Source of the DNA: Oehlia diaphana
Taxonomy: Eukaryota; Glomeromycota; Glomeromycetes; Glomerales; Glomeraceae
Direction: 5' to 3'
Length of the DNA stretch: 64,000 nt
Assembly (NCBI GenBank): GCA_003833135.1
Contig: QZLH01000126.1
Location: 69,663-133,662, forward strand
A program made the position numbers and the translations under genes. Under the pieces are notes generated by a model. The model saw only the letters and a program-made list of their open reading frames with translations, made no database searches and had not been told where the DNA came from. Shown piece by piece: positions 6,867 to 31,358 of this stretch; the stretch's first letter is position 1; each line of letters opens with the position of its first letter.

Positions 6867-7480
6867 TTCATTTTTTTTTTCCGCAAGATTTAACACAAAC
6901 TTTTATTGTGCAAAGTTCAGCGCCGAAAGTTACGTTACACAACATAGTGTTGATCTAAATAATTAAATTGGGAAATTAAATTTTTAAAATCATTAGTAAT
7001 GCTGGTCAAACTGGTCAAATTGGGTATGAAACGTAAATCCTTTATCCGCAGCGAAACCGCTGTGAGAATTTCCGGATGTAATGTCCGATACAATGATAGT
7101 AGATAATAGTTTTGTTTGAATACGTAATCTAATTATGGAAGTTAATTTGTACAAATAAACCAAATAAAATCACAAAACTTTCAATTCTATCTATTTCAAG
7201 ATAGATAAAGGGGAAAATATAAAAAAATCTTATTGGGAGTTTAATTTTCCGCAGTAATTTGAATGATTTTTTGATAAATACTTAATTTGGATAAGCATAT
7301 TTTTTTTTTTTCATCGGACTATTTAAATAGCAAATAATTCCATTTTCGAATTTTTTATTTCTTATGTTTGTAAATATTACATTACACTCAAAGAATAATA
7401 ATATCAGATCTTTTTAAGTTTCAATCTGAATTGAAACAAAAATTAATATAAATTATTAATATTTATAATATTAATGAATT
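6867..7480. promoter_or_regulatory. Divergent promoter region, POF1-like / RNF213-like
   Basis: 614 bp between two divergent start codons, so both promoters must lie here. It is A+T-rich, with a T-run (7303-7313) and a TATTTATAATATT context about 20 bp before the RNF213-like ATG. No specific factor site is claimed. Confidence 0.5.
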
Positions 7481-10400
7481 ATGTCGTCCGAAATTCGAAG
7501 AAGTTCCTTGGATAATCCAGGTCACGAAGTCACAAGTGATGATGAAAATGTGATTCATTCCGAACAATCTATCATTGAATCTTCGCCTGGACCTTCTTCC
7601 ATTAAAGGGATCGGAAACGACGAGGATGATTCAACAGAAACAAGCCAAAATCAGGATTCCCAACAACTACAGTCTGAATCATCTAATATAGAAAATATAT
7701 TTTTTAAAGGATTGAAAACGATTTTTGGCAAAGAAACTGAGGATGGTTCAAATACGCAAGTCACTTTTCATGTTCATTTACCTTCATTCGATTATATTGA
7801 TGGCTATCCAATTATTGTTGGTAATATCGAGGAGTTAGGCAACTGGGAAGAACCAATTGTTAAATTAAAACAACCGAGTAGTAGTGAATACATGTTTAGT
7901 TATTGGTATTCGGATCCGATTTCTATACCGGCTAATAAATTTGATAAAGTCAAGTATAGGTATGCATTCTTTCAAAGGAAGAAGAATAAAGATGCAAAGA
8001 GTACAGAAGAAGGAGATCTTTATTTTGAAGATGGGCAGCAACAACGACTTTTAACTACTAGAACTGGATCTCAATTTGACATTGCAGCAAGGTTTAGAAT
8101 TAAAAACCGACAATGTGAACTTCGATCAATTAGAGAATTCATGTTTCTTGATATCATATATGATAATATAACGTCAAATAATCTTGGGGAAAAAATTACA
8201 GAATACCAAGAACTTCTAAATCGTTTTGGTGAAGTGACTTTAAGAGCAACAAATTTTGAATTTATCGGATATAATCTTCAAAGATCAAGAGCAAGAGATT
8301 TTGAGAAACGTATTTTCTTGTGCATTGTTTTAGGATATTATATTGATTGGAGACAGCAAAAATCTCTTGGTCGGCTTGTCTTACCAAACGGATTCCCTAT
8401 ATCTCAAATTATCGATACTTTAGAAAAGGTTCAACCCGATATCTTGCCCGAAGAATGCCAAGCCGCACTAAACATTACGATGACAGCTGTAATTTATTTA
8501 AATATGGCCAATAGAGCCTTTGATTGGTTGAGACTATTCGAGGTTGCAAGTGTTATCGATTCAAATTTCACTTTCATCGAAGCGATTCAAGATCTTCAAT
8601 ATAATAATGAGCGCATGAATAAATTCTTAAATGAATTTATGAAATTCGCCAAATCTATTGTAGATCAAATTAAAGATGTAGAAATTTATTCTAATATCGG
8701 AATGGTAAATTATTATTTAATGCTGTAAATATATTGTTACTCTTATAATTTATTAAACTATTTATGTTCTTTTTTTAGTGGTTATTTTATAATTGCAGAT
8801 CTCTCGATGCACTTCTTTTTGTTTGGATCAGAGTGATCGATCACACAAAAAGCCGTGATAACCAACTTATTAAACACTTCCTTCATCGTGTTGAACAACT
8901 TATTTCTTCATCTCATGCAACAGGTTTGACAAGGCAATTTTCACAAATTCCTACTGAACTTCATGCAGAAGTTGCTGGAATATTTAGAATGCAAGCTCTA
9001 ACATTACTTAAACACCGTGGTATTGAGTGGAACAGAAGTAATTCAGAAGAAATTCTTAACATACTTAATAATTCTCAACTTAAATGGTCTGAAGATAATT
9101 TCCTAGAAGCAATGTATCATGTTTCTGAATCGTCAAAGCCCAACTTACTTTTAATTTTTCCAAACCTATTGGAATATTGGTTTAAAAATTTCAAACCATA
9201 TTTCAATCCTGAAATTTGTAAAAATTGGTATCATCATTTAATTGATATCAATGGGTCTGAATCATCTATTGCTAATGATCCAGATTTCATCCTTGAAATT
9301 TATGAGAATTTATCATACATCTTTCCAATAGTAGGAAATCACGGTGAAATTCTTGAAGAATTGTTAGATGTTGCAGCTAATCGTGTCAAAAATTGTGCTA
9401 TGTCAAATATTTTGACTGTTACGCCAAAAATTGCAAAGTTACGGAAAGAAATCTATAATTCATATGGAGAAATGGTAAAGGCAATGTTGAAGAAATCTAT
9501 AAGTAAAGTTGATAATAGCGTGATAAAAATTTTATTACAAGTTTGTGATTGTAAAAGTGAAGTTTTGCATGTACAAAATGAGTAAGTATAGAATCTTTTT
9601 TTTTTAAAAAAAAACGCTGAATCATCTTTATGATCATTTTTATTAATTCAATCCCTTTTTAGATTAAGCGAAAATATCGTATATCATGTGATGACGTATT
9701 TAGAAGCTAAAGATACAAGTATCAAGAGTAGTACAAATTTATCAACCGCGATTTTAAATTTGCTCAAAACTTATCGATTTTGGAATTTAATATTCAACGC
9801 AACTGGTCGTGTTGAAAATTTGCATTCACATCCTTACATTAAGCAAGTTCAGAGATTAGTCTCTAAATTTGCCGATGACGTTATTGAAAAGACCATAACA
9901 ATTCGTTCACTGCAAGAAATTTTTGAATATGAGGATATTTTACTTAACCTTTTTAATTTTTCGGATAAGAAAGAGAAAATCACTATGGATGTGACGAAAA
10001 AACTTCGAACAAATTGCCGATCATATATGATGAGAATGGATCAATTAAGAACATTTTATGATAATTTTTGTCCAATTGAAAAAGTAAAGGATGTTCAAAA
10101 ATTTCTTGATGATATCAATAACCGGAATAGTAATACAGAAAATCTCACGCTTAAAGATGCTATGGCTTCAAATCATTGGGATTTTCATAAGAAAAATGTA
10201 CATTGTGCTATACGCGTACATAGAATAGCAAAGTCACACACATTCCGTAATATTTTCGAAGATATTATGAAAGTAGAAGAAGTTGATTTAACTGTTGAAA
10301 ATATAGCTCAAACTATAATGCCATCTGTATTTGAAAAATACGATCAACTATGTCAACAGTATAAAGAATGGGAAAAACTCAAATGTTCAAAGGGAAGTGT

Positions 10401-13400
10401 TCTTTGGAAAAATGTGACAGATATTGAAAAGGAATTAGAGATGATGAAAGACAATATGCAATTGGGAAATAGTGAAAAATTAATTCAGACACTTGCGCAT
10501 CTTTCATTAGTTCCAACTCAGGTTGAGAGACTTCAACAATTATCTACAGTTGCAGTTATGTTTAAAGTAGCTCATACTAAAGACGATTGGCTTGAAAGAT
10601 TACTTGTGATTCTTCGTGACGATTATCTTTGGTTAGGGAAATTAATAGATTTCTTTGACATATTTAATCATTACCTCGGATTAATTGATGAGGATTGCTG
10701 GGATTTGATTAAAGAACTATCACAAGCTGGTGACTTTATTGTTTTCCTTCATAAAATTGCTGAGCATGATATTAAAAATTTAATTAACGGAGTAGATGAA
10801 TCTTCTGATGAACGTCTCATACAGGAAGATACAGTTTCTTCTCTCATTCAAGTCAAACAATTCTTGCTTCCCTTATTGAAAACTGCAGAAAAATCATCAC
10901 TTGAAGAGTTTTTGGATGAAATTAGAGCTATAACTCAACAGAATGCAAAGTTAGGAAACAAAGTAGCACTTTGCAATAACAATAATATGGCATTACAAAA
11001 TCTATATAATAGCATTTCAAATAAAGGAGAAGTTACAAGAGAAAAGATCAGTAGTGCAGTTAAGAGAGGAACTTACACTTTTGAACGTGATAATAAGGGA
11101 GATGCATGTAAAGTTACCTTATCTTATCCTACAGTTAAGGGAACGAAACAACCGTCTTATACCCTAACTGACTTACATGACTTACGTGGACGTGCACTCT
11201 TGATATCAAAACCTTCAGCATCTGTTGATATTGTAACTAATCAAACCCCTGGCGTGGAAACAGAGGAAGTTTCCAAGCCTATTATGGACGAATTTGTTAA
11301 GCAAGTAGACATGGCACAAGAAATTATAAATCTTTCAACAAAGCTCATTCAAACAGGTCATTTTAGTTATCGTACATTTAAGCGAGAAATTAAGGGTACA
11401 GAGAATATGATACAAGCAGTTACTGAATTAAAGGCGCACTTAAAAGAATGGTAATTATATATCTTCTTTAATATTGTTAACGACCCCCATGGGGTTAGAG
11501 AGTCATTGTAGACTATTTTTATAAACTTTTTAAACATTGATTTTTTTTTTTTTTTTAAAAAAAAAATATATTATATAGGGAAAAAATTGTGAATAAAGCG
11601 CAAGAGGAATATTATTATCTAACCTTCTTCCCAGCCCGACATATTTTGACATTCCTCGACTATTTCAGTGTTAGTGACAAAGCAAATGAAAATTCTGAAA
11701 AACATGATAATAAAGAACATGAAATTACGGAAAAATGCGAGGATATGAAAGATACCGAAGAACATGAAGAATGTGAAGATATCGAAAAACGCGAAGATAC
11801 AGAACAACGTGAAGATACAGAACGTGAAGATATCGAAAAATGCGAAGATACAGAACAACGTGAAGATACAGAAAAACGCGAAGGTACAGAAGAACAAGAA
11901 AATGAAAATATTGAAGGTACAGAAATTACCAAAGAGCGTGAAACTTCTGAAGAAAATGAAACTACCAAAAGGCGTGAAATTGTCAAGGAACTTGAAATTG
12001 TCGAAGAACATGAAATTATCGAGGAATGGGACAACATTGAGGAACATAAAGATACCGAAGAATGTGAAAAACTCATCCGATTTGTAAACGGCAAAGCTAA
12101 ATTGCCTCCAAAAGACCAAATAACCATTAACTTAGGAAATAATTATTATCAAATTCTCGGAGAAATTGGGACAATATTACAGGGAATATTTGGGACAATT
12201 CCAAAAGAAGAACGTAAAGTTGAGAGTGTTAAAGAGCGTGTAATTACAGACGTTGTTTATCCTGGGAAATTATTTGTTGCCGCATGTGATGATAAATTCC
12301 TTGTTCCAAATATTATAATGTCATTATATGTTAATCATGGATATTACCCTTTACCATGGCAGTTATTAATATGTACAACTTCTACAACTATGGAAGAACT
12401 TGCAATTTTTGTTAAAAGATGTTTCTTTGCAAATAACAATGGATATGGAGGAACTCTTTTTTGTCTCGCTAATTTGGAATTATTAGATTTTGAGTTACAA
12501 TATAATTTAGTGAACCTCATTAGATCAATGCGCGAAAAACATAATAATTTTCAACTAGCATTAATTTGTTATCGCGAACAAGGATTACATCATCATATTT
12601 TGGACCAATTTTCACAAGATGTTCATGCGACAAATGGTTTAAACGGAGATGCAATGAAAGTTCTTTATCATGAATTGTATCCAAATACTATGACTGTTTC
12701 TTCTGAATTATCTGGTCAGGGTAAAAGTGAATGGATTAGACAGTCTAGTTATTCAAAAAAACTAATACCAAAAAGTTTTCTTATTAGTGATGAAGCTGAT
12801 TTCAAAACACTTGTACATAGATTTAAAGAATTTAAGATACGACCATTTGAAAGCGTTCATTTAAATATTGTATCAGCTGATAATCCTATAGATGTTAACA
12901 TGTTCTTATTCGAACTTTTAACTTTAGGAATCGTATTTTGTAACATGGATGTTGCATTTCTTCCAGGCACGCTCGTATATATTGAAATAGCTTCTACTAT
13001 GGAACAACATCTGTTTAAATCTTTACCAATTGCAGGATATCTTCAACGAACACATTTAACTTGGGATGTAGAAAATTTAGTAGTTTCTCAAGACATTGAT
13101 AGTCCAATTCAAGTAATTTGTCATTATTTAAAAGAACTTGGTAATGAAGAGGCAATAAATGAAAAAGATATTGATTTCACAGATTTAGAGCCATTACCTG
13201 CTGCTGAATGTAGAGGGTTGATTAAAGATTATCTATTTAAACGAAATACAAATGATTCAATAGATGCAAGAGATATCTCATCATATAGGTTCATTGAAAT
13301 TTTTGTTAATGTATTTGCTGATCAATTAGTTAGATTATCATTAAGTTCATTTTTCCAAGTTGAAAATTTAAAACTTATGGTAGAAGAGAATAATATACGC

Positions 13401-16400
13401 AGTACACTTGTTGAAACTTTGCTAAATGTATCGAAAGATTTTGCCACAAAGTCTATTGCGACCAAAGCAGCACAAAAAGAAAATATTTCAACCACCGAAG
13501 ATGAAACTGCAATACTCGGAACCATAGTACAATGGGATGACTCAAATCATTTGTTAGTGTTTTTCTTATCTCAAACACCGGATTCAATCTGCGCTTTATA
13601 TAGAGACAAAGAGAAAGTACCACAAAACGTAAAAATTTTATTGAAAAGTCAGCATATCGGAGATAAGAGCCTCTGGGATTTGGATGATTATCATACGATG
13701 GACACTAGTATTTTATTGTCCACTTTGGAAAATTTAGCAAGAAAGACCATGTACAAACTTGAATATCCTCAATATGCTCTTTCTGCCGACAACTTAATTA
13801 AAATGGCTCTTATCCTTTTAAGAGCTCGTGCTAATATTCCCGTAATCGTATGTGGAGAAGCCGGATGCGGAAAGACTAGTTTAATAGGATTTTTAGCTAA
13901 AGTTGTTGAAGTAGAATTTCACGCATTGAATCTTCATGCTGGTGTTACAGAAGATGCTATTTTATATTTTATGAGAGAATCTCAAGAAAAAGCGAAAAAA
14001 GGAGAAGTTTGGTTATTCTTTGATGAAATTAACACCTGTAATCACATTGGATTACTTGCTGATTTGATCGCTCATAGAATTTTAAATGGAAAACCAATCC
14101 ATAATAATATACGACTTTTTGCGGCATGTAACCCATATCGTATACGTACAAAAGCAGCGACATCAGCAGGTTTATTAAAACCAAAAGACTCACGTTTTGA
14201 AGAAAAAAGTAAACTTGTTTATCAAGTTAAGCCGTTACCTGATCAAATATTGGATTATGTTTGGGATTATGGTGTTCTTAAACCAAAAGAGGAAGAGAAA
14301 TATATCGAAATTATGGTATCGGAACAACTTAAAGAACTTGGACATAAAGTATTATCAGAATGCTTATTTGCGTCCCAAGAATTTATAAGAACAATTGAAT
14401 CATCTTACAGCGTTAGTTTACGTGACGTTAAACGTGCTATTACACTTGTTAAATTCTTCATTAAAAGTTTTGAAGATCGACCTCCAATTAAAAGATTCGG
14501 AAAAGTTAAAAAATACCCTGAACCCAGTGATATTACGATTAATGTACGTTGTTATGTTATTGCATTAGGATTATCTTATCAATCAAGAATATATGAACAA
14601 AATTTAAGGAAAGAATATAGAAAAAGGATGGGAGAAATTTTTAGAAAGCACAAATTTATTATCGATGAGGAAAGATTTAGTAATATCGTAAGAGAAGAAC
14701 AAGAAGATTATATTAACAGGATGCAATGTCCACCTAATACGGCAAAAAACGAAGCTTTATTGGAGAATGTTCTAGTTATGATTGTATGTATTTTAACCAA
14801 AATACCTTGTTTCATAATCGGGGCTCCAGGATCCTCAAAATCTTTAGCGGTGAGACTTATAAGCCAAAATCTTCGAGGATCAGATTCAAATGATGAATAC
14901 TTTAGAAGATTACCTCAAGTATATTTAATTCCACATCAAGGTTCATCATCTTCAACTTCTGAAGGTATAAACAAAGTATTTCAAAAAGCAGTTGCGTATC
15001 AAGAAACAAGTTCAGAAGAATTTCCTGTTCTCAGCGTTGTATTACTTGATGAAGGTAATGATCATAAACTTTTTTAAAAAAATTTTCCTTGTCCGCATTG
15101 TTGATAAACAAATATTTTAATTTTTAGTGGGATTGGCTGAAACGAGTCCATTTAATCCGTTAAAAGTTTTACATTCGTTACTTGAACCAAGCTATCCTGC
15201 AGTTGGACCAACTGTCTCTTGCATAGCTATTTCAAATTGGCGATTGGATAATAGTAAAAGTAGCAGAGCATTATTAGTTCAAAGACCAAAGTTTGAATTA
15301 GAGGATTTAACGGATACAGCATCAAGATTGCTCATAAAAAGTGAGAATTCTCAAATATCAATTGCATCATTAAATTTACTAGCACAATCATATTTAAATT
15401 ACGAACAAAATGGACAAGATAAATTGCCAAATTTCCATGGACTAAGAGATTATTATTCTTTAGTAAAAAGTTTATCACAATATAGTAGTTTGACACCAGA
15501 AAATATACAAATGGCATTAATAAGAAACTTTGGTGGTGTAGACAATATTAGACAATTAATAGAGAAATATTTTGGACAAGTAATAAGATATTTTAATTCA
15601 TCAAAAGAATTTAATTATAAACATATACCAATAGGAGATTTAATTAATGCAAATTTAGAAGATAAAGATGCGAGACATTTAATGGTCATAGGTAAAAGTG
15701 ATAGTATTGTAAATTTATTAAATTATCAATTGAGGAAGAAAGGTTTAGATCCCGTTATAATACTTGGATCACAATTTCCTGAAGATCAAGATGATTATTC
15801 TTACAGTGTTTTAAGTAGAATCATGATGTGTGTTGAAACTGGCAGACCATTAATTTTGACAGATTTAGAAATTATTTACGGTGAGTACCATCCGGTCTAT
15901 ATCTAATATATTTATATGTTATTAATATTTTTGTTATTTCTCATATAAAAATAGGAAGTTTATATGATTTATGGAATCAAAATTACATTGTCGTTGGTAG
16001 TGAAGATGATCCAAAATTTTATGCCAGAGTAGCACTTGGAGCATATGCAAATCCAATGTTATACGTAGCCCCGACATTTAGATGTATTTTAGTAATGGAT
16101 GAAAGTAAATTAGAAAAAGCTGATCCGCCATTGCTTAATAGATTTGAAAAACAAAAAATGACCATGAACGATACATTAACTCAACAAGAGCATGAATTAG
16201 TAGATACTCTTAAAGAATGGACGAAATTAATTTCTACTATAACGGATAAAAAGAATATGTTAAATATAGAACTAAAAGGTTTCACAGAAAAGGATCTGTT
16301 TATTGGATTTGATGAAAGCGAGACTTTACAAAGTTTAGTTATTGACGTTAAAAAGAGTTTCCCTGAAGCAGAAGAAGATGAAATATTATTTAAATGCAAA

Positions 16401-19400
16401 GAGAAATTAGTCAAAATCGCGTCATCCGATGGTATGATTAGAGCCGAAAGATCGAATTTAAATTTAGAAGAAGTTAAGCAATGGAAAAATATTTATTTTA
16501 ATGAACAACATCATGATAATTTAACTGATCATATTCAGTATTGTCTTTCCGATAATGAAAATTACAATGAAGGGTTTGAAGGATTACAGATCATTATCAA
16601 TACATTCTCGAACATTAATACAGATATTAAATCACGTTTACAATATATTACTAGCTGCCAAATAGATAAATTATCAACATTCAAGACTGAATCTCAATTT
16701 CAAAACAGAATTAAATATTTTTGGAACGAGTCTCAAGATAAAATGCTAATATTACAATGTGATGTTACAACAATTAATGCGGGATGTATTAAATTGGCGA
16801 AATTTTTGATTGAACAATATCGTAACGAATATTTACAGAAAAGGAGATTACAATCACAATTACAGCAGGATACAGAACAATCAATATCTTGGAGTCTAAA
16901 AAATTCACAGTCAAAACAGCCGCAAAAAGATTTGCCTATTAAACACGTATGCATTATTTTACATATTCATAGAGAACAAGAAAATTCCTTAGCATCATTT
17001 AATTTCATGTGTGGATGGGATCAGGTTACGATAGAAACTTTACTACCTCAAGAAAAAGATTTGTCACTACTTTTGAATGATAACTTATCAGATTTAATAT
17101 CAACGGTATACCCATTCGAAGAAATCTTAAAACAAGAGTTATTATGGTGTTTATTATGTCTAAAATTTCCTTCCAATTTCAAATCAGTAGAGCATATTAA
17201 GATGCTTAACGAGAAAATTTACAAAACTCCTATCTTGGTCAATTTATTGAAGACTAGAACAGTAAATTGGCTAAAGGAACATTCCAATAACACCAATTGG
17301 CAATATGAAGTGTCGTCCAATAAGAAATTATTATATCCTTATTCTTCTTTTGCGAACGCACTTCTGGCTCACATCAGAAGAGTCATTCGTAAACCCATTG
17401 CGAAACTATTATACGCTCTTGAAAAATATGCGGCAATTTATACTATTATTTTCTTGTGCGAAAACGAAAAAAGTATTACCAACAAAGTTCCTGTCAAATT
17501 TGCGATGGAAAGTGTGGGGAGTAGTGACACAATTAAAGAAATTTCGGATGATAATATAATGAGTGATGATGCTTGTTTATTGGAATTTTGGAACAAGATG
17601 GTCGATGATGACAATGTAATTTCAATAGAAGGATTAAACGTTGATCCATCACCAGATAGTTATGTAATGCCACATGGAGTATATGAATTAGAATTTCCGT
17701 TTTCATATTATATAATGAAAAAAATTGATGATTCTAGAAGAGTATACGAAGAAGAATTGCTATCGTTATATAATAATCAAGAAAATATTGATAAAACGAC
17801 GGGAGAATTACATACTCATGTAGTAGAAGGGTATAATAAGAAATTTATTAATAATATTGAAAAAAGTCCTATAATTAAAAACTCGCCTATTGCTAATTAT
17901 CCCGAAAAATATTTTAAGGATTTTATTAATGTTATATTATCTGACAAAGTTAGTAGTGGAGAAAAAGATGGAAATTTGGATGAGAAATTATTGAAATTCA
18001 TTTTTGAAAGAAGATTAGGAGCTGATAATGTTTTGAATCCTATTAGATTGCATTCATATTGGTGGAAAAATTCTTCATCTATTCTTGCTGAATTATCTTT
18101 AGCTCAAATGAGCCCTAATGTTATCACACAAATTGAAACTGAAAAAGAAAATGAAGAAAATAAGATATTGTTGGATGTTGAATTTGAAATATATCTTGTT
18201 GAGCAAGTAATCCGAAATCTCTTAAGGAGAATTATTGATGCAAAAGAAGGTGAACATGAAGGACTAAGAAATTTAAGAATAATTGAAAGATGGCAATATG
18301 AGGTGACAAAAGTATTATCATTATGTGAAAAGATCAATGTATCCTTTAAATTATATTCATTACAATTGCTTAGAATTTGTAATGATTTATTAGTTACAAA
18401 ATCAATTCCATTGGGTGAGATGAAACGAATAATTGAATATGCTCAACAGCAAAATGCGAACTCTTCTTCCGATGGAGCACAAAATGAAATCATTACAGAA
18501 GGGTTTATTAATATTGTTATGAAGATTTTAACTAACCTTGAACTCAGCGAAAATAATTTAATTCCAAGACGTTTATTTATCTTGAGATGTCTTGATATGC
18601 TTACATTAGAATCGCCCGTTAGGCTCTATCTTTATAGAGAGACATTTTCTTCATCACCATTTCCAATTATGGGAGCAATTATATCACGTATCTTTGAGAC
18701 TGAAGAAAAAGAATGTCCTAATTCTATATTGCATCTTATTCAGCAACCAAAACAGATTTTACAACATTCAGAAAGACTTGCTACTATCAACGAATGTTTT
18801 AATATTAATAACTTGAATGTTATGATGGCTGCATTAATATGTGATACTTTTCAACAAGAATTTTTTTCAAAATTGGATTTGGTCGCCTTAGTTGATGGAT
18901 TTAATTCAGCAATTAATGCATTATATGGAAATGATATTCAACCATTACAACGTATTGCTTCGATCGCATTCCTTAAAGAATTTACCAATCAATTCTGGAA
19001 ATACATAATCAAGTGCAATGAAGATTATCTTCAACCTATTACACATAATTTATTGGAAGCGAAAACTTTTGATGGTTCATTATTAATGGAACAATTTAAT
19101 AATACGATGTCAATACCTCATCCACTAATTACTTCATTTGGTCTATATCTCTTGAGAGAATTGCGTATTAATAGAGAATTTTCAGGTGATGAAATCAAGA
19201 AATTCTGTGAAGCTCAATCAAAGAATCTGAATTGGTTTGATAATTTTAATATAGATGATAAAAATGAGAGCAGATTACCTTTTAATCCTTATTGGGCTGT
19301 TCCAAGTTATGGAAAATTAGAAATTGCGTTCACGTTATTATACAATGATGATAATCGACCACAATTCAACTCCATCTTTCAACAATATAATGATAAAGCG

Positions 19401-22286
19401 CCGGATTTATCAGATAAATTAGGACTATTTGGTATTGTAGTAGCTAAATTACATTCTATTAGAGCTTCAAGAGAATGGAAACATAATGAAAATCAAATTT
19501 CTCAATACTTTGGACAAAAAATTACTGATTTAACTACGATTCCCGAAGATTTTAAAGAGATACTATTTAATGTATTGGCAAACACTCATCCATTATTAAA
19601 AATTAATGAAGTAATAACAAACAGTGAATTGTTAATTAAATCAGTTATTGCTCATATAATTGGCTTGCATGTATTACTTGATCCAAATACCACTCCATTA
19701 TCACTTTATATGCATAAAATAATAGATGCTCAAAAAACTTTTATTTTAGCGTGTCAATCAGATATGGAGAATTTATTATTTAATGCTATTGCAGAAAGAG
19801 AAGGAGTATCGAGATACTCTTGTCAATGTGGGTATAAATATTTAATTGGGGAATGTGGTGGAGCAATGGAAGAAAGTAGATGTCCTGAATGTAAAAAAAC
19901 AATTGGAGGGTTAAGTCATGTTACAGCTGAAGGTAATACAAGGTTAGATGTTGAAAATAAATATTCATTTGAATCAAATGATCAAAAAGGCTATATTTCC
20001 GAAAAAATCAACGATGATATTAATTATACTATGAGGTACCTGACTCCTGTTGCTTACAGGATACTTCATTTAATTGTTCACGCTATTATTGGATCTCAAG
20101 CTGCTTCACCAGATTCCATCGCTTTAATCCAACAACATAGTAAGGATTACACTAACGTTGAAGATTACTGTATGGAACATATTAAAAATGATTGGAATGC
20201 TTTAAAACAAATTCTTAATTGTTCTGATGAGAATTTAGCTTTAACATTTCACTCATTGATATTAACTCTTGATAATAATTTACCGTCTTGTAATTCAACG
20301 CTTTATTCTTCTTACTCTAGAAATCAATGGGAAACAGCCTTCTCGCAAACAACAGTACTGGAACTTACTCGTAATGTAAATGAATCTGCTGCTAAATTCC
20401 GTGCTCAAATAGAACAAAATATGAAAAAAGTTGATGTTAAAAATTCTTTATTAGAAGAATTAATTAATCAAACTAATTTAATGGATGAGAGATATACTCG
20501 TGAAAATTTACCTTCATTATGGAGAGTAATTGGTAAAATTGACTACAACAGTTTCAGGGCTTATTATTTTTCCGATCCAAAACACACCGAGAATCATCCT
20601 TTCCTTAACGTCTTCTTTAAACATTCAAAAAATTTACATTTAATTAAATATCTTTATCCAATGGTTAAATTCATTCAAATACTGAGTACTAAATTAGGTT
20701 ATAAAATATCAAGAGATGATGCTAAAAAATTAACTTTTAGAAAATTTATCGAGAACGAATCAAATGATGGCAAAGATAAAGATACTTATGACACGCTCGA
20801 TAAATATTTTAATGAATTTCAAATATCTTATAATACTATAATCAATATGGTTGAAAGATACCAATGTCATACTTTTAAAATTAAACCACATATTACAGAT
20901 AATGAAAGCATTGTATATGGATTTATGGAAGGAAAAGATGAAGGAATTTATTTATGTGCAATAATAGAATATTTAATTAATATTCAAAATAATTTCTTAA
21001 GAGAAATAATGTTAATTAAACCTGGATCGTGCAATTCTCTTAGATTCCTACAATCTCCATCTTGGGATGTTATTACTTCTTCAGCTGATAATTCTCCTTA
21101 TATTATTAAATCCATGAGAGTTGATCGTGCAATTGAAAGTAATTTTATTGTTTATGAATGGGACGATGAAATTCTTAAATATTCCCAAAGAAATTTGGAA
21201 GTAGGAAAAGGACAATATATTATTTATGATTTGCATCGTATTGAAAGTAAATTGGCTAATACTTTAGTCTACAGTAAAGTTCATTTTGAAGGTGGTAATG
21301 AACAATTAGTATTAGATCCCTTCCCTTATCATTTAGAATTATTTTCTTCTTCCATACGTATACTTGGTGAAATTAAATCATTAATTCCTCAAGAAGAAAT
21401 TCCTTCTGAAAAATTATCTCTTATAATTGGTCAACAATCTGTCCCCTCTTATTTAACACTTTCAGCTTCCTTGTCAACTTTAACTTCAAAAGATAATTCT
21501 TCTGAATTACTTTCTTTATTAGAAATTTTACTTTGTTTCATAAAGAGAACATCAATTGGGGATGGTAATTTACTTTTGAATGAATTTATTAATCAATGGG
21601 TTCAATTATCTTCATTAACGGAAAATTCAAGATTCAAAACGATCCTATCTTATGAACTTCAATTAAAACACGTTGTATCTCTTTATGAAGTTATTGAAGA
21701 ACAAGTAGCTAATATTATGATTCAATTCATCGATAAGAAATTCAAAGAACCTTTAACGGATGATATGAAAAAAGATCTCGATGATGCTATTGATTTTGAA
21801 GGAGGAAACAAAGGAAAAATTCCTGCTGATTCATTTATTATAGCTATGAAAAGATTTATTCAAAGAGTATTACAAGCCGAAAGTGATAAAGAAACTCATC
21901 CACTAAATACTTATGTGACAGATATGTCTCTTAGTCTTTGGCCTAGTAATAATGTAATAGAAGAAGTTTTGGATGATAAATTCCCCGATACTCTTCTTGT
22001 AGCCAATTCTTTTGCTGCTTATGAATATGTTTTACAGAAAAAAGAGGTATGTATCATTTTATATATACAAATACATGCATTTTTTAAAATTATTATAACC
22101 TTTTTAACCCTTTTTTTATAGATATCCAAACCTAAACAATCATACTCAGGAGGAATGAGTAATAAACCACCTAGTTTTAATACAACATCTATTTCAGAAA
22201 CTACTGCCTCAAGTCCATCACAATCTACTCAGCCTTCTGCTTTTACCTTAAAAAATAAAGGAAAGAAAGTTATTAGAGATGAATGA
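7481..22286 (+). CDS. RNF213-type giant AAA+ E3 ubiquitin ligase (CBM20, AAA modules, RZ finger)
   Basis: Exons 7481-8724, 8799-9581, 9663-11450, 11579-15054, 15128-15880, 15955-22046 and 22122-22286 join in frame to 14,301 nt (4,766 aa); human RNF213 is about 5,200 aa. Order: acidic, Ser-rich N-terminus; CBM20 starch/glycogen-binding domain (about residues 94-205, GNIEELGNWEE); long helical arm; a Glu-rich repeat (about 1310-1435). An AAA module follows with Walker A GEAGCGKTS (about 2030), Walker B WLFFDEINT and sensor FAACNPYR. A second AAA module has Walker A GAPGSSKS (about 2352) and Walker B LLDEVGLAE, which straddles an intron. The large C-terminal E3 shell carries an RZ finger (about 3970-4005) with IGECGGAME and CPEC. 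By family knowledge these proteins ubiquitylate proteins and bacterial lipopolysaccharide and act at lipid droplets and in antimicrobial defence. No RING cysteine cluster is visible. Confidence 0.95.
7760..8095 (+). other. CBM20 domain in exon 1 of the RNF213-like gene
   Basis: Residues about 94-205 read VTFHVHLPSFDYIDGYPIIV, then GNIEELGNWEE, and later FDKVKYRYAFF. This is the CBM20 pattern of beta-strands with the GN.xELGxW turn that carries a sugar-binding Trp. Animal RNF213 also has an N-terminal CBM20, so the architecture is ancestral rather than a local fusion. A glycogen- or glucan-binding role is inference. Confidence 0.85.
11694..12069 (+). repeat. In-frame coding minisatellite, 18-nt unit, in RNF213-like exon 4
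   Basis: An array based on an 18-nt unit (about GAAGATACAGAACAACGT) encodes E-D-T-E-Q/K-R. The core 11775-11890 has about seven units, one shortened to 15 nt, with a visible higher-order duplication of three units. Flanking copies are more diverged (EE/TE/IVKE-type). It gives a highly charged, probably helical or disordered linker of about 125 residues upstream of the AAA core. All unit lengths are multiples of three, so copy-number changes would keep frame. The array also keeps several other frames open on both strands. Confidence 0.85.
19812..19919 (+). other. RZ-type zinc finger of the RNF213-like protein (variant)
   Basis: The segment reads [20 protein letters not shown], then SRCPECKKTIGGLSH. 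It aligns without gaps to the neighbouring ZNFX1-like RZ finger ([20 protein letters not shown], then CPDC..FIGG). The first half-site differs: the usual Cys-x3-His ligand pair becomes Cys-x-Cys-Gly-Tyr, so the canonical His is missing and an additional Cys (codon 19827-19829) sits two residues after the first. The remaining Cys residues (GECGG and CPEC) are intact. Confidence 0.88.
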
Positions 22287-23077
22287 GTTCTTTTTTGTTT
22301 ATATTGTAGCTTTTTTTTTCATCTATTTTCAATTTTATATGTAGTTAAATCTGTTTATTATATTAATTCCAGTTATAAGAAATAAAGTAAATTCAAAATT
22401 TAAAATTTAAATCAGACAGGTTTAATAATTTTATCGCAAAAATATGATAATTATTAAAGTCAACTAGTCAAGTACATAGCGAATTTTATTCTAAAGTGTG
22501 CAGCTACGGAATTTGGTAAGTACTTTATGTCAGTACAACTTAAGTTGTACTTCTCGCACAAATGATTTGTAGCTGAAACATGTACAAGCGTTTTGTTTTA
22601 TATTGAACGAAGGGAATTTCTTGGGTAATCAAATTCACCCTTGTCTCTCGTCTTGGTAACTGGTGACACATTCTCCTTTCTTTAAGGAGTATATAATCAA
22701 TCTTTAGTCTATTAATCGTTAAATAACAATCAGCATTTTATATTTTGTATAGAATTTTTTAAAGGAAAAACTTCTTTATTTAATACTAAGATTTAGAATA
22801 GTGATAGGAAATATTTTATATCCACTAACAATATAAATAGAAGTATCACTTTGAAAATTTATTAGTGACTTAAGACAAAAAAGAAGCTTTGACGTTTATA
22901 ATTTTTCTATAGTAGACATAGCAGACAAATTCTTATTAAAATTATTAAAATCCGGATATTTTTGAACTTTCACGAATTAAGTTTGTATAGTAAATTAAAA
23001 AAAAAGCTCTCTTTGATTTGTCACTATGGCTAGTTATACTTCAATATTACATTTTTCATGAGCCACTGAAACAAGAT
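22287..23077. other. Intergenic between convergent RNF213-like and ZNFX1-like genes
   Basis: 791 bp separate the two stop codons. It contains polyadenylation-like AATAAAG (about 22381-22387) for the plus-strand gene and a perfect 20-bp palindrome (listed separately). No RNA gene or transposon ends are seen. Confidence 0.55.
22532..22551. repeat. Perfect 20-bp palindrome
   Basis: The sequence AGTACAACTT followed directly by its exact reverse complement, without a spacer. It is centred in the spacer between the convergent RNF213-like and ZNFX1-like genes. It could be a dimeric factor site or chance; no transposon structure surrounds it. Confidence 0.8.
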
Positions 23078-26000
23078 TCACTCGATTATATTTCCACCGG
23101 TCATTGTTTCAAATTCAGCATTTCTTCTATTACCGGAGGTTAACAGGTGACTATTACCTCCGATAAATACTCCACAGTCAGGACACCTATTTTATAATAA
23201 GCAAGAATTATTTTCTTATTAAAAAATAAAGAATTAATTATTAATTTCCGTTACCTGCTCATTTGCATTGCCCCACCACATTCACCAATAGTATATGGAT
23301 GACCATTTGGACATTCATACCAGTGTCCTACAAAAATATATTGAAAACAATTAAGTTGGAATGAGTCGTAAATATCAAATCTAAATTAATTTTACCTGAT
23401 CCAATGAATTCGCTGCTCATTGCTCTGGAAATTTCTAATTTTTCTTGTTGAGATAATTGTCCAGATCTTTCTACTGTATCATAAAATTCATCTACATTCC
23501 TCAATAACTTAGAAATTCTCTCTGTACATTGACTTTGGAAATATTCCAATTCGACTTTTGGCAAAACATCATTTAATATTTTTTCGCAATCTTTGCGAAT
23601 TTTATTACATCTATTTTTGAGTTCTTCTTTATTTGTAGGAGTCACAATATTTCTAGGTAGATTGTTAAAAATAAATCTTCCAAATTGATACTCAAATTCT
23701 ACGTATTCCATTGAAGCAACTACTAGATGTCTTTTATATAAACTTTCTTTGCATGTCTGAATAATTACATCCAGATGATTGTTGATTGAATCATTTATAC
23801 TGCGACAAAATTTGATCCAATTTCTCTGTGTTTCTAATACTAAATTTCCAGTATGGGCTAATTCCACTTTAGGTAACTCTGAAACTATTCGAGTTGCTTC
23901 ATCAAACAAAATTTTTTGAACATTAACGATTTCGAAAAATGCGTCAAGATACAAACGACGGTCGAATTGTGGTGCAATTAAACCAACATCTCGAAGACTC
24001 TGTTCAAATCGTTTTTTTTGATTTTCTGGTGACTCTGTTTTTTCTATGACGTTGAGATTTTCCAAGTTATTGAAGAGTGAATCAAATTGAGCTTTGGATT
24101 TTTCATTGTAACTTTTATTGGTAAAATGTTTAAAAATAAAGAGCTAAGTATTAATAGTCCTAAGATTTTAGTGAAATACTATTTAAATTTTACTTACAGA
24201 CGCGTCACAGCAGCTTCAAAAGCTTTTTTATAAGGTGGATTTTTCGAATCTGACATAATAATCATCAATTTTTGGTATGAATTAAGGAGGTCGCGGACGT
24301 GAGTCCTCCACAAGTTTGCGTGTTGTTCCGGAATAAAGTGATACTTTTCAATTTGATAGAATTTCTCGCTCTCACTAACTTCAGATAATGTTTTATTTGT
24401 ATCCATAGTATTTTTATCGTCGATTTTCTTATTATTACTTTTTGGATAGGTTCTGTTTCTGAATTTTTCCAATAATTTTGGCCTATTATTCTCTATCTTG
24501 TTTATAATCTTTTCCAATGCCTCTCTCTGATATTTTAAAAGTAGATCATATTTTGTCAAAAACTTTTTGTTTTGCGTGTCAAGAATTCGTTTTTTAATAG
24601 ATCGTCCATATCTCTTGCTTTTAATGGGAGCTTTTTTTTTTAAAAAAAAAAAAATGAATAAATAAATTGTATCAAAAGGGCAAACACAAAGCTTAGTTAC
24701 CTCGACAGGTTGGACATGTCATAATTTTGTTTTCTCCCGATTTAGATGAAAGCATAACAAGTTTAGTCCAATTTCCGTAATCTCCTTGATAATATTTCTC
24801 CATCTCCATATGGTGATCCATTGTCTCCATTGTAAATACATGTCCACAGTCTAAGATAATCACTCTTTCTTTTTCCAAATCAGTTTCAGCAAATGTTTTA
24901 AATTCTAGAATATCGATCACTATAAAATTTGAAATGAATCAAACATTAAAAACGACAAAATCAAAAAATAAAATAAAAAAATAACATGAAATGAAATAAA
25001 ATAACATAAAAAAATAAAATAAAACAAAATAAAATAAAATATTGTATAAAGATTAAGTCTTACTAACTTTGCTCTTTAACATTGTCAGGTGCACAAATTA
25101 CGCAAAATTTCGGGGTTGGACAAATTTCACCACATACTCCTGGACACTGATGTCCACATTCCAATCTTTTTTCGCATCTTAAATCACATGGTAATCGTGA
25201 ACATGGAGCACCTGGAAGAAGTCAAGATATTTATCAGTATATGATACAAACAAAGCAAACACTAAAAGGTTAAAAAATTCATACCACAAGATAAAAGGCA
25301 TCTTCCTTTTCCGTGTGGACAATACCAATCACATTGTTCCGCGCAAGAAGAACAAGGTTTAAAACACTCCAATTTACACGTTGAATGTGAACAAGAAACA
25401 GTACACTTCGCTATGCAGGGCTTACAATTTTTTCCTTCGTGACAGACTTCTTCACATTTATGACCACAAAATAAGTTTCTTTCACAGATTTTTCTACAAT
25501 ATCCGTGTTTATTCCTCTTTATGTAGCCATTTTCATCAAAAATTGGTTCATCCTCGTTGGCTTTAATCGATCGTTTTTGACATTCATTACATGGTGATGA
25601 ACAACTAATTTGATTATGAAAGGCTTAATATAATTATTAAAAGTATCCTAAAATTTTTAAAACCAACTTACGGGTGGTTACATGTGTTTAATTCTCCACA
25701 TGGTTGTTTACAGATTATGTCATCCACTGATTTATTGCACTTTTACCATAAAGATATTATTAATTTTGTTATTTTAAACAATAAATAATCACTAGAAAAT
25801 TTTATATTACCATCACTTCAAGCTTATGCCCACATTTCGGTAATGTTTTAAAGACTTTTACACGACATAGTACTGAGTTGACATTACGACTTTCATAGCA
25901 CTTTGCATTTGGATACTTATGACCGCAAGAAGGCAAAGTGATATCACCAATAATTAAAGTGCAATCGCCTAGAGGAACAAAATTAAAAATTATACAGATA

Positions 26001-29000
26001 GTTAAAATTTCTTCATTTATATTTGTTAAACATAATTAATTTACAAACCACATTTATCTCCGCATGATTTATTACAAGGATGTTTACATTCTGGATGTAA
26101 TCTAGTACAACTTTTTCTACAAATGATATCTATATGATCTGGGTTATCAAAATGACATTTATATGGGCCTATAATGAATATGTTAACAGATGCGATTATT
26201 ATTAGCATGAATCCATGAATTGAAATTTCAAACAATTTCAAAATACATACACAAATGTCCACACTTCTCGAGTTTTTTCCCACAACTTCAGATTTTAGAT
26301 AAAAAAAAAAAATTCAGCAGTTATATATAAACTAATACTTGATAGAAAAGGGAAAAGGAACTTATTACGTACCTCTCCTAAATGTATCAACACGTAACGA
26401 ATAATAATTTATTTATTAAAAGGCAAATAGTTAGTTGCTAAAAAAGGCAAAAATACATTTAGTAATATTCAAATGATAATCACCAAACATCCTCCATCTG
26501 GTGCAAATTCAGCGAACTGTTGGGGGACCTTCACATTATTTCGATTATTGGGATGTTGAGGACATAATATAGGAAAAGAATCCCCAACTTGATTACGGGA
26601 TCTTAACATTCCAATTACGTCTGCCCACATTTGGGATTTATTAGCCATTAACTCAGCATTACCAAGCAAATACATCCCGTGCTTAGCCCGTGAAAGTAAA
26701 ACATTGCTACGATTAGTTGACTTTAGAAAACCAATACCACCCCTGTCATCTTCCTTAGAAGAATTTCTCACAAGTGAAATGATAACTATATTGGCTTCTT
26801 CTCCTTGAAAATTATCAACTGTCCTTAGTGTAACCTAAACAAAATATAAAAAACCTTCTTAAAACGCTGAATTATTTTAATAAATCATATCCCAATTTTT
26901 CATGCATACTTGTTGATTTAATGACTTTTTAGTTGCAATGCTGATATTTTCCACTGGATTATTTTCTGTCTTTTCCTCTTTCCTGTCTTCATTTTCATCT
27001 TCCATTTCTGCAAGATCTTGACTATCTCTTTCATCAATGACAACAGTAAATGTTGTTTTTAATGCATCCCGAAGTTTTACCATTTGTCCGAGATATGGTG
27101 TAAGAATAGCAATATCATCCTGTTTTGTGTATCCATTTCTAACAAAAAATTTTACTATTTCGATAATCATATCTACTTCGTATTTATTAGAATGCGATTT
27201 AGTCGTTAATTCATTTTCGCATTTATCTTCATGGTTACGATGATTGATAAAATACACATTATGTTGAGCACCACGAATCTTAGGATATTTAGTGGTATTT
27301 TCACCGTCTTTCAATTCTTTATAGAGTGTATGTCTTATCAAATCGGAAATTTCAATTGCTCTCATACGTCTCTGAGTTAATAACTGAGATTTCTCAATAC
27401 GGGTGGCTTTATCGCCCTTAACCAAGCGCTCAAAGAGACTTTCATCTAATCCATATTTTTTGCCAATTGATGAATCACAGCTTAAATAGTGAGTGGCGAT
27501 ATGCGGTCGTAATTGATTATGATCTTAATAAATAAATAATTATACATATATAAATATAAAATTTTGAAATATTTTGAAATTTCATTATAAAAAAGTAACA
27601 AACAGCACATACCACCAATAAGAATAAGATGTTGCGTAGAGGGTGTAAGCGCTGAAAGAATATGAGCTTCGAGGACTTCTCCAGCTTCTTCGCATAAAAT
27701 AATCTTAGGTCTAACAGAACGAACGAGAGATTGAAATTTCGCAGCCCCGTTAGTAGTCATCCCAATTACGTCACATTCTTTTAAAATTTTTTTTCTCCTT
27801 TCACTATGAATATCTTCTATTTCTTTTCTTTTTTCATCATGAATTCTTTGTAGATTTGCTAATGATTCCACATTTTCAAGATTTAACTCGTGTCTCCAAA
27901 AGTCATGCAATGCTACGCGTTCAGTTGTAGACATTCTCCAAATATTTGTATTATTCTTTAGTTCTTCCAATGGACGATTGGTTTTGGGCTCTTGCCAATT
28001 TGCTAGATAGACTTGAGGGTCATTTTGTTCATAATCATCATAATATTCTTCATCCTCAAAAAAACTATCACTGTCTTCAGGTTTGTAATATTCATTAAGT
28101 TCATCATCATAATTAGCAAGAGCGTCATAGACATTAGTGTTCGTATTATTATTCTTTTTTTCTTTACGAAGCTGTTTTGAATTTTCTGTGGCTTTAAGCA
28201 TAGCTCTAGCATTTTTTATATCCACTCCATGCAACCATTTGTCAAATAATGTTTGATTTTTTGAATCTTTACCAGTTAAATCCCATTCTTCATCAAAATA
28301 GTCATTTAATAAGAAACTTGGAATTTCAGGATCTTGGTAACCGAAGAATTTATTATAATGTTCATGAAAATCCACATATAAATAGGAAGATACTTCTTTC
28401 CATTGTAACCATCTTAAATTTAATCTTTCTTGAATCTGATCTGCATCTTTTTGAATAGTTTCAAGTTCTTGGTAAGTCTTAGATAAAAGATATGATTCAA
28501 CCCCAACAGGTTTTTCCCGATTCTTAACAACTTCCTCAAGATTAAAAGGAGCAATTTTATCAGATTTAGAGCGTCCTCCTAATCTTACGATGTTATCAAT
28601 TCCAGCTTTATCAATCAAATGCTACGATTTATATTTAATTAATTAAAAAGATATATATAAATAATATAAAATATTATTAAACATAAACATTAATATACAA
28701 GATGTAAAATAAAAATACTTTACCTCCAAAAATTGGTCTAAAGCGTGGTTTGTAAAACAAATGACGAGTATCGGGGTAAGATTTATACTACGATTTTCTT
28801 CTGCGAGCAAAACTTTCATAATTTCTATTCCTACAACAGTTTTACCCGTGCCCGGTGGACCTAATTAAGTTCAGACAATGGTTAATTCTTACATTTGGCG
28901 CAATACTCAAATCTGGCATAAAATTTTAAAATTACCTTCAATTAACGCAATTTCTTTACACAAAGAAGAAACGAGAGCTTTAGCTAAAAAAGGGTAAATA

Positions 29001-31358
29001 ATAATTTTAAATTTTGATTTATCTGATTTATTAAAATTAATAATATTAAAATTTAAATACCTTGTGTATCATCCAAAGAACTTCCATTTACTAGTTCTTT
29101 AACAACATTTTCATGTTCATTCGCATTAGCAACATTCAAAAGTAGTTCCTTTTGCTTATCACGCAACAATACTTTTAGATTGAACCGAAATTCTGGAGCT
29201 CTTGCATAATCTGGTATATCTACGGTAAAAGCACTTTTGGCAGAAGTATCCTTGACGGACTCAATTTGATTTTCATCATCGACACTCGCCAAGGTCAAAT
29301 ATTTTTCAAAAGGTAACATTGAATCATTTGTGGATTGCAGAGTTTTCAACACATGGTAGCATGATTCAAGATAAATCCCGGTGCATTCTACCATAAAACG
29401 TAATGACAAATTTTGTACTGCATTTTTATTTTTTTGATTTGAAATGTCTTTTAAAGCTAAAGGATAAATAGCGGCATCCATAAAACTAATGTCAATTTCG
29501 ACTCTATCTTCAAATTTGGCTAGTTGCTCATCATCTCTTTGCACAACTACACCAAAAAATAGAGAATATTTTGGCGAAATTGTTTCTTCTGTAGGCAAAA
29601 GAAGGCATACTAAATTTCCATTCATTAATTTTTTTGAATGCTTTTTCCAATAAAGTGTACGATCTTTCACATTTTTCCCAGAATTTGTTGGTGCGGGAAA
29701 TGCTATTCGACATGAAAATCCACGTCTTTTGTCGACTGAAATTCTAACAAAACGAGCTCTTGGATAAATATATAAGTCTCCGTTGTCTTGACGGTATTTA
29801 CCACCTTTTTCTTGATATTTTCTTAAAATGTTATTATTACGATTTGGATCTGCCAAAAATTGCAAGAAACTGTTTATTCCCATTCTAAGAGGATGTAACA
29901 TATCTTCACGTAACAAACGAAATTGTGAGTCGAGAAGACGTGCTATTCCCTCGGGAAGAAAATGTGGAGCTCCAGGAATATTTGTTGGTAAAAAAGGTGA
30001 CCTATCGCTTAAAATTTCTTCCTGTGTAGGAATTATAGAGATTTTTGAAATATCGCTGAAATCGTTATTATGCCGAGGTCCTTTATGTGATAATTCTCCC
30101 GGAGGATCATAAGAACGTTTTAAATCAGCAAGTCGTGATTTTTCTCTATAAGTACCCAAAGATGATTCGTCGATTGAATTTTGTTCATTTAAGAAAGTTC
30201 TCTTAGAATGCTTTTTTATAACTTGTTTCACCTTCTTAAATTCTTTATCTAAAATAAAGAAAAAATAATCTCTTCGATCGATATTAGAATAAAGTGGATC
30301 ATTGGAATTTCCTTGTTGAGTTGAAAATGAATTTTGCCAACTTAATTTGGCGTCTTCTAATCGTTGAATAATGTCATTCATCGCATCATTGACTGCGGCA
30401 TCTCGCATTCGGTCAAGAAGAATACTACATAATCTCACAATCACCAAGAAAAATTGACCGAGACTATTAAAAAAAAAGTCATTAATATGTATACTTTAGG
30501 ATTAATAAAATAAAAAAAAAACTTTTATAATTAGAATAACATACGATGTTGGAAAGAAAGAGTGTGGATCATCTCTAAGTAATTCATTTTGAGGAGTTCG
30601 TTGATCATCCACAGAATTTCTCTGAACCAAAATTTCCAACATATTAATTACTTTGTTGTTTATAAAATCCTCCTTTGTAAAAGTAAATATTTATCAAGCA
30701 TATTAATATTAATTAGACAATAAAAAATACAAAAATTCAAATAATTAAATATCCATAAATATACCAAATTAGTATATACGAGAGTGTAGATAGCATTAAC
30801 ATTACTTTCCAAAATACTATCAGTGATTCCAGAACGAGTTAACAACGCAAGAAATGGTAAAGTTACGCGCTGGAAAGAAGCAACTTGAGGCATCAATCCT
30901 GCGTCAACTGATACAGGGAACATCATAATCTCTCTTAAACGTTGTCTACCATCAGGTTCGGACAGTTTTGCGATAAGATCACTCAATTCATAATCAGAAT
31001 TTCCAGAAGCAACAACTAAACATGAGTTGAGAAATCGACGAATATGATGTTGATTGCTAAGTTCTTTTTTCAACAGACGTTTCCACATTGACTGGATTTC
31101 ATCCTCATGAGGGATGAATACAACTTTATCGCTTCCCTTATATGTCAATTCGGATGATTCAAAATTACCAGAGAGAATTTGAACGTTTTCTCTCTCAACA
31201 TCTTGCGGATTACGAAATATTCGAGCACGTTCACTATTTGAAGAGTTATCACTACGTGGACGAATATTGTTATTCGAAGAACTATCACTATCTCTTCTAT
31301 TATTATTATTCCAACCACCTCGACCTCTTCCACGGCCTCTACCACCTCTGTAGCTCAT
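23078..31358 (-). CDS. ZNFX1-type SF1 RNA helicase with NFX1 zinc fingers and C-terminal RZ finger
   Basis: Twenty exons (high to low): 31358-30765, 30672-30545, 30463-29061, 28983-28936, 28860-28724, 28621-27613, 27523-26910, 26834-26484, 26377-26373, 26285-26251, 26168-26049, 25968-25811, 25739-25672, 25604-25285, 25211-25068, 24919-24701, 24630-24198, 24111-23396, 23327-23255, 23186-23078. Total 6,684 nt, 2,227 aa (human ZNFX1 about 1,918). Order: N-terminal RGG/RGR repeats; helical region; UPF1-like SF1 helicase with Walker [10 protein letters not shown] (about 725), Walker B ILCEEAGE (about 1079), [13 protein letters not shown] and [10 protein letters not shown] (about 1316-1370). NFX1-type Cys/His repeats follow (about 1428-1710: [35 protein letters not shown]), then a RING-like LDCGHVF...CPTCR, and a canonical RZ finger at 2167-2205. 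Animal ZNFX1 is an RNA sensor and small-RNA inheritance factor; the role in this fungus is inferred. Confidence 0.95.
23120..23327 (-). other. Canonical RZ-type zinc finger at the ZNFX1-like C-terminus (last two exons)
   Basis: Exons 23327-23255 and 23186-23078 encode [25 protein letters not shown] and [13 protein letters not shown]. This holds the full ligand set: the Cys and His of CPNGH, the Cys of GECGG and the CPDC pair. The splice junction falls between the SR and the CPDC pair (codon AG|G). The match to the RNF213-like RZ finger next door shows two members of the same finger family. Confidence 0.93.
24955..25043. repeat. (AAAAT)n-like simple repeat in a ZNFX1-like intron
   Basis: Plus-strand sequence built from AAAAT/AAATA units with interruptions (ACATG, ACAAA). 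It lies within the intron between exons 15 and 16 of the minus-strand gene. Confidence 0.75.
26373..26377 (-). other. 5-nt microexon in the ZNFX1-like gene
   Basis: On the minus strand, ...ACATTTAG is followed by GAGAG and then GTACGT. Exon 8 ends in phase 0 (...GGATGTTTG) and exon 10 needs two preceding nucleotides (T|TGT|GGG...). Inserting GAGAG restores frame and gives [18 protein letters not shown], which matches the expected GGC...C...L.CGH.C start of the NFX1-repeat region. Skipping it shifts the whole C-terminal half out of frame. The call rests on frame logic and splice borders, not on RNA data. Confidence 0.7.

Follow-up and report, generated by a model that had tools for sequence, protein, structure and literature searches.

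RNF213-like and ZNFX1-like genes side by side in Oehlia diaphana: two RZ-finger ubiquitin ligase families, probably adjacent by coincidence

Do two large genes that lie tail to tail and both carry an RZ-type zinc finger work as a pair, or are they neighbors by chance? The question is raised by a 64,000-nucleotide stretch of DNA from the arbuscular mycorrhizal fungus Oehlia diaphana (GenBank assembly GCA_003833135.1; contig QZLH01000126.1, positions 69,663 to 133,662 of the forward strand), here called the window (C126:69663-133662 in a genome of 108.8 Mb, 1672 contigs, and ~30% G+C). It holds an RNF213-like gene and, converging on it, a ZNFX1-like gene, which an original prediction, made from the letters alone, took for a linked RZ-finger defense locus. 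Here, we report that the family assignments and the catalytic residues stand and that a linked defense locus is not supported; these are probably two separate RZ ubiquitin ligase genes, adjacent by coincidence and without a shared function, a reading that takes in the RING-less RZ mechanism proposed below.

Two RZ-finger genes and their architecture

Gene models were built with our own splice scoring, without transcripts. The RNF213-like gene runs on the plus strand from the ATG at 7481 to the stop end at 22286 and encodes 4734 amino acids in seven exons (7481-8704, 8779-9581, 9663-11450, 11675-15054, 15128-15880, 15955-22046, and 22122-22286). The ZNFX1-like gene occupies the minus strand from its ATG at 31358 to its stop end at 23078 (20 exons, 2227 amino acids; all 19 introns GT-AG). 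Both models are supported by their agreement with annotated Rhizophagus irregularis proteins, P0003 (4760 amino acids, 98.4% identity) for the former and P0121 (2230 amino acids, 98.0%) for the latter. These identities mark the genome as that of R. irregularis or a near relative. The predicted adjacency, convergent orientation, and positions were thus correct, as was close spacing, although the spacer between the stop codons (22287..23077, without N) measures 791 bp and not 792 bp. Both genes were also rightly called full length: the Walker A motifs of AAA3, AAA4, and the SF1 (superfamily 1) helicase and both RZ fingers are intact by translation, Pfam, and the 98% identical database copies, and from their sequences both genes look active.

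A profile of 10 fungal members searched against PDB matched nine distinct sequences at an E value of ≤0.001, all of them RNF213 (best E, 9e-210), with the best-matching stretch at 1955-2912, which identifies the window gene as a true RNF213 relative and its AAA core as homologous. The exon at 11675..15054 (plus strand) carries the AAA3 Walker A (GEAGCGKT), the AAA3 Walker B, and the AAA4 Walker A (GAPGSSKS), found by Pfam (AAA_5 and AAA) and in the translation. Part of the E3 module, RZ included, was modeled (17391..20600, plus strand); by this model the fold matches that of RNF213, and no RING was found. The RZ finger itself (19806..19943, plus strand; PF20173, 65.4 bits) has a C-x-C form and keeps the catalytic cysteine and histidine.

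No RING family was matched in the window RNF213-like exons by a Pfam scan at an E value of ≤0.01. When 10 RNF213-like relatives were scanned at an E value of ≤1, RZ was present in all 10, and the sole RING-like family was zf-RING_4, in two members (best E, 0.16), which falls on the RZ finger in P0003; its location in the second member was not displayed. Nor was a RING family recognized by eye in the Pfam accessions listed for RNF213-like matches (the best 120 of 1407). Over P0003 positions 3170-3939, no cysteine was invariant or nearly invariant across 17 sequences, and one (C3638) was nearly invariant across 10. Because no RING is recognizable, the window gene is classed as an RNF213-like gene lacking a RING rather than as RNF213 itself. 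The mouse RING is described as an insertion between helices of the E3 back, and activity survives its removal (as given in PMC7311170). A fungal form that naturally lacks a RING agrees with the RING-independent chemistry demonstrated for the mouse protein. Protein kinase domains are listed in some RNF213-like records from Diversispora and Gigaspora (P0011, P0247, and P0258), where a fusion or an annotation merge is possible.

The ZNFX1-like protein carries the ZNFX1 domain (PF25396), AAA_11 (PF13086), AAA_12 (PF13087), and RZ, and the best PDB match of the near-identical P0121 is ZNFX1 (9q9z; E, 9e-106), so this gene too is a true member of the family proposed for it. Its RZ finger (PF20173, 83.2 bits, residues 2161-2213) lies in the last two exons (23078..23327, minus strand), is split by an intron (23187-23254), has the C-x3-H form, and keeps the catalytic cysteine and histidine. 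A Cys-rich stretch was seen by eye, with no NF-X1 Pfam family matched there, as is also the case for sea urchin ZNFX1 (P0197); the gene model requires a 5-nt microexon (26373-26377) within this region.

Finger residues were compared in an alignment of 75 RNF213-type and 65 ZNFX1-type fingers from 242 proteins (240 database matches and the two window proteins; 102 were without a finger), with type assigned by the search that retrieved the protein, gaps counted in n, and residues 4451 to 4483 numbered as in animal RNF213. RNF213-type fingers carry Cys4453 in 68/75 and His4455 in 0/75 (five have gaps there), the catalytic Cys4462 in 62/75, and the catalytic His4483 in 43/75, with tyrosine in its place in 25. 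On the ZNFX1 side, His4455 is present in 64/65, the catalytic cysteine in 60/65, and the catalytic histidine in 45/65. The animal zinc ligand set (Cys4451, His4455, Cys4471, and Cys4474) is thus not retained on the fungal RNF213 side, where Cys4453 likely replaces His4455 as a ligand. Mouse RNF213 has the C-x3-H form; the C-x-C form, which also occurs in an Endogone protein, appears as far as seen to be peculiar to the fungal RNF213 side. Within this genome, all 11 RNF213-type fingers are C-x-C with the catalytic cysteine, and seven keep the catalytic histidine; the ZNFX1-type fingers have the catalytic cysteine in 8/8 and the histidine in 7/8 (seven were read in the second half only). The four RNF213-type fingers that have lost the histidine and kept the cysteine carry tyrosine (contigs C122, C50, and C732) or asparagine (C133).

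In animals, ATP bound to the AAA core activates RNF213, and ubiquitin transits the RZ Cys4462 with His4483 as the base (as set out in PMC12075652). ZNFX1 is presented as an RNA-activated ligase, with debate over whether RNA itself is ubiquitinated (PMC13270118), and both worm and fission yeast are described as using ZNFX1/Hrr1 for small-RNA silencing (PMC9276528). Judged by their sequences, the window proteins retain the parts needed for this chemistry, and from this analogy we infer enzyme activity, ATP control, and targets in the fungus. The RNF213-like protein would be a very large ubiquitin ligase, probably gated by ATP: the AAA ring (AAA3/AAA4) would control the E3 module, and ubiquitin would move from E2 to the RZ cysteine to the target with no RING involved. 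The ZNFX1-like protein would be an SF1 RNA helicase with an RZ ligase of its own, most likely working on or around RNA, like ZNFX1 and Hrr1.

Compared with animal RNF213, the window protein has in common its giant size, the AAA core, the E3 module fold (by model), and the catalytic cysteine and histidine of RZ, but differs in the RING that was not found, the CBM20-like N-terminal exon, the C-x-C in place of C-x3-H, and its 21 loci in one genome. The ZNFX1-like protein shares the ZNFX1 domain and SF1 helicase with animal ZNFX1 and Schizosaccharomyces pombe Hrr1, and the C-x3-H finger with catalytic cysteine and histidine with animal ZNFX1; nothing distinctive was found in the window copy, other than its being one of 18 loci. 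Since annotated proteins of R. irregularis (P0003 and P0121, among other Glomeromycotina RZ-type proteins) are 98% identical to the window gene products, the genes themselves are not new. The Glomeromycotina records are named hypothetical, RZ-type, E3 ubiquitin-protein ligase, AAA+, or P-loop and are silent on the missing RING and the ligand switch. No paper on the RNF213 or ZNFX1 families in mycorrhizal fungi was found among titles and abstract starts, with most subscription journals outside the search. An HRR1 homologue is reported in the R. irregularis proteome (PMC8647823).

Rival functions and the origin of the pairing

The N-terminal exon suggests another role for the RNF213-like family, namely lipid, glycogen, or protein housekeeping, with a CBM20-like starch-binding domain directing the protein to glycogen or another glucan. 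We regard this role as possible though tentative; it is compatible with the two genes being unconnected ligases. The domain (residues 92-194; 7754..8062, plus strand; PF00686) scores 26.3 bits on the first exon, above the Pfam cutoff of 23.3, and was matched in five of the 10 scanned members at an E value of ≤1; cyclodextrin glucanotransferases are among its weak PDB matches (E, 0.35 to 0.97), and no RNF213 match was found in that stretch at an E value of ≤1. Animal RNF213 is also located on lipid droplets. Against housekeeping, the score in the full-length, near-identical P0003 (22.1) falls slightly below the cutoff, and the number of copies in this single genome, together with their divergence, would rather suggest a fast-changing family.

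A whole-genome search for RZ gave 19 matches above the cutoff, 11 RNF213-type and eight ZNFX1-type, so the finger, which had been called rare, is not rare in this genome. There are at least 21 RNF213-like loci (18 found through the AAA region, plus those on C178, C410, and C38) and at least 18 ZNFX1-like loci by the helicase region, weak matches on C63 and C317 included; both are minimum counts, and neighbors cannot be judged for those loci that lie close to contig ends. Among all 21 by 18 loci, the window pair on C126 is the sole adjacent one, and the only other contig with both families is C50, where they lie ~180 kb apart. With 20,000 to 30,000 genes assumed (PMC8647823 gives 22,338 gene models for R. 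irregularis), the probability that one or more pairs are adjacent by chance is 0.6 to 0.9% for 11 by 8 loci and 2.4 to 3.5% for 21 by 17, a set that omits the C63 fragment; these figures are weakened because the pair was spotted first and tested afterwards.

Several copies have structures of their own. The RNF213-like copy on C410 (L015, ~6000-6900) is without the AAA core; residues ~867 are followed directly by ~3027, the reading frame shifts where they meet, and the RZ finger is intact. On C38 (L017 and L018), two RNF213-like halves converge from opposite strands, one being the E3 half and the other the N-terminal half, with ~0.6 kb between the matches. Three ZNFX1-like copies share contig C564, where two with the same orientation are separated by ~10 kb. 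Segmental duplication was considered for the window and set aside: nine pieces of its flank genes had no match in the locus stretches that were compared.

Relatives in other species were compared from protein records only, among the matches listed. Outside R. irregularis, the window RNF213-like gene has its closest relative in Rhizophagus cerebriforme P0004 (85.1%), and a close relative of the ZNFX1-like gene is Rhizophagus clarus P0122 (85.3%). The nearest listed RNF213-like protein of R. clarus, P0007, is 87.0% identical to the copy on C178 and 85.5% to that on C390 but 71.8% to the window gene (E3 part) and, by these identities, groups with the former two; its comparison with P0005 was not used, as the summed alignments (59.4% and 65.0% by direction) conflict with its 84 to 85% identity to P0006 and P0008. 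The listed ZNFX1-like proteins of R. cerebriforme reach 50 to 55% to the window gene over the helicase region. Close orthologues of both genes were therefore found among these matches in no single species besides R. irregularis. A search for shorter models of the missing R. clarus and R. cerebriforme orthologues gave no high-identity match among the best 120 of 501, and annotation gaps could be the reason for their absence.

That the two genes form a functional defense locus, the RNF213-like protein placing a ubiquitin coat on viral particles or on bacteria inside the cell, the ZNFX1-like protein sensing foreign RNA, and selection keeping them linked, is in our view unlikely. Both animal proteins belong to innate immunity and have RZ chemistry in common, as far as PMC12075652 and PMC13270118 describe them; both window genes are intact, their adjacency by chance is improbable, and R. 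clarus P0050 and P0122 may sit on one contig. However, no second adjacent pair exists among the 21 by 18 loci, the tail-to-tail arrangement rules out a shared promoter, and the relatives are split: R. clarus has the ZNFX1-like orthologue, with its listed RNF213-like protein grouping elsewhere, and R. cerebriforme has the RNF213-like orthologue, with only distant listed ZNFX1-like proteins. A partnership is not supported by the linkage. A wider version, in which arbuscular mycorrhizal fungi run cell-autonomous immunity against endobacteria and viruses on expanded families of RING-less C-x-C RNF213 and ZNFX1-like helicases, with this locus as the founding, still paired copies, is if anything a little less likely.

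The pairing looks like chance because each gene comes from a large family and the two families show no linkage elsewhere. Weighing against coincidence, and against the mechanism attached to it, are the following. P0050, RNF213-like and 46.5% identical to the window protein, is listed with the same longest contig as P0122 (2,067,704 bases), so the two may share it in R. clarus; the chance of a gap of ≤792 bp on the physical scale is 0.13% or 0.52%; and an adjacency chance of at most a few percent is small enough to leave some probability to linkage. For the mechanism, the catalytic histidine is missing from about two-fifths of the listed RNF213-type fingers, and one RZ zinc ligand differs from that of the animal protein.

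As for shared finger ancestry, of which adjacency had been taken as a sign, the fingers fall into separate clades. In a tree of 127 of the 140 fingers (69 RNF213-type and 58 ZNFX1-type after duplicates and short rows were dropped; 57 columns), a single edge with a support of 0.986 splits the two types with none misplaced, and the six fingers nearest to each window RZ all lie within its own family; the neighbors have therefore not exchanged fingers. Recent shared ancestry through local exchange or gene conversion, suggested by the presence of RZ in both side-by-side genes, is highly improbable given that edge, the different zinc ligands (Cys4453 without His4455 against His4455), and the intron that splits the ZNFX1-like RZ and not the RNF213-like one. 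All RZ fingers may still descend from one ancient source. A shared cassette upstream of RZ had been suggested when residues 2053-2213 of the ZNFX1-like protein matched an RNF213-like copy in tblastn; it was rejected by profile-profile comparison of the 420 residues before RZ (75 versus 65 sequences; probability, 0.3%).

Neighborhood of the pair

The flanks are gene dense, with an amino acid transporter, a GH35 beta-galactosidase, major facilitator superfamily transporters, an RSN1/PHM7-type membrane protein, a Lon protease, and a carnitine acyltransferase. A minus-strand open reading frame (5856-6902, 348 amino acids) has no Pfam match; by eye it resembles a nucleotidyl transferase of the nicotinamide mononucleotide adenylyltransferase type, which we presume it to be. 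A repeat search of the spacer (22287-23077) gave nothing beyond short two-copy pairs.

Meaning for the two families

The pairing itself is probably of little meaning. More deserving of attention is the RNF213-like family with its C-x-C finger and no recognizable RING, a novel form of a known kind of protein. That a fungal lineage has retained and multiplied RNF213 without a RING is evidence from nature in favor of ubiquitin transfer by RZ independent of a RING, and the fingers that lack the histidine and keep the cysteine (4/11) lend themselves to testing what RZ needs in the way of zinc ligands and catalytic residues. Lying outside animals and without interferon, this lineage is a place to ask what the original roles of RNF213 and ZNFX1 were.

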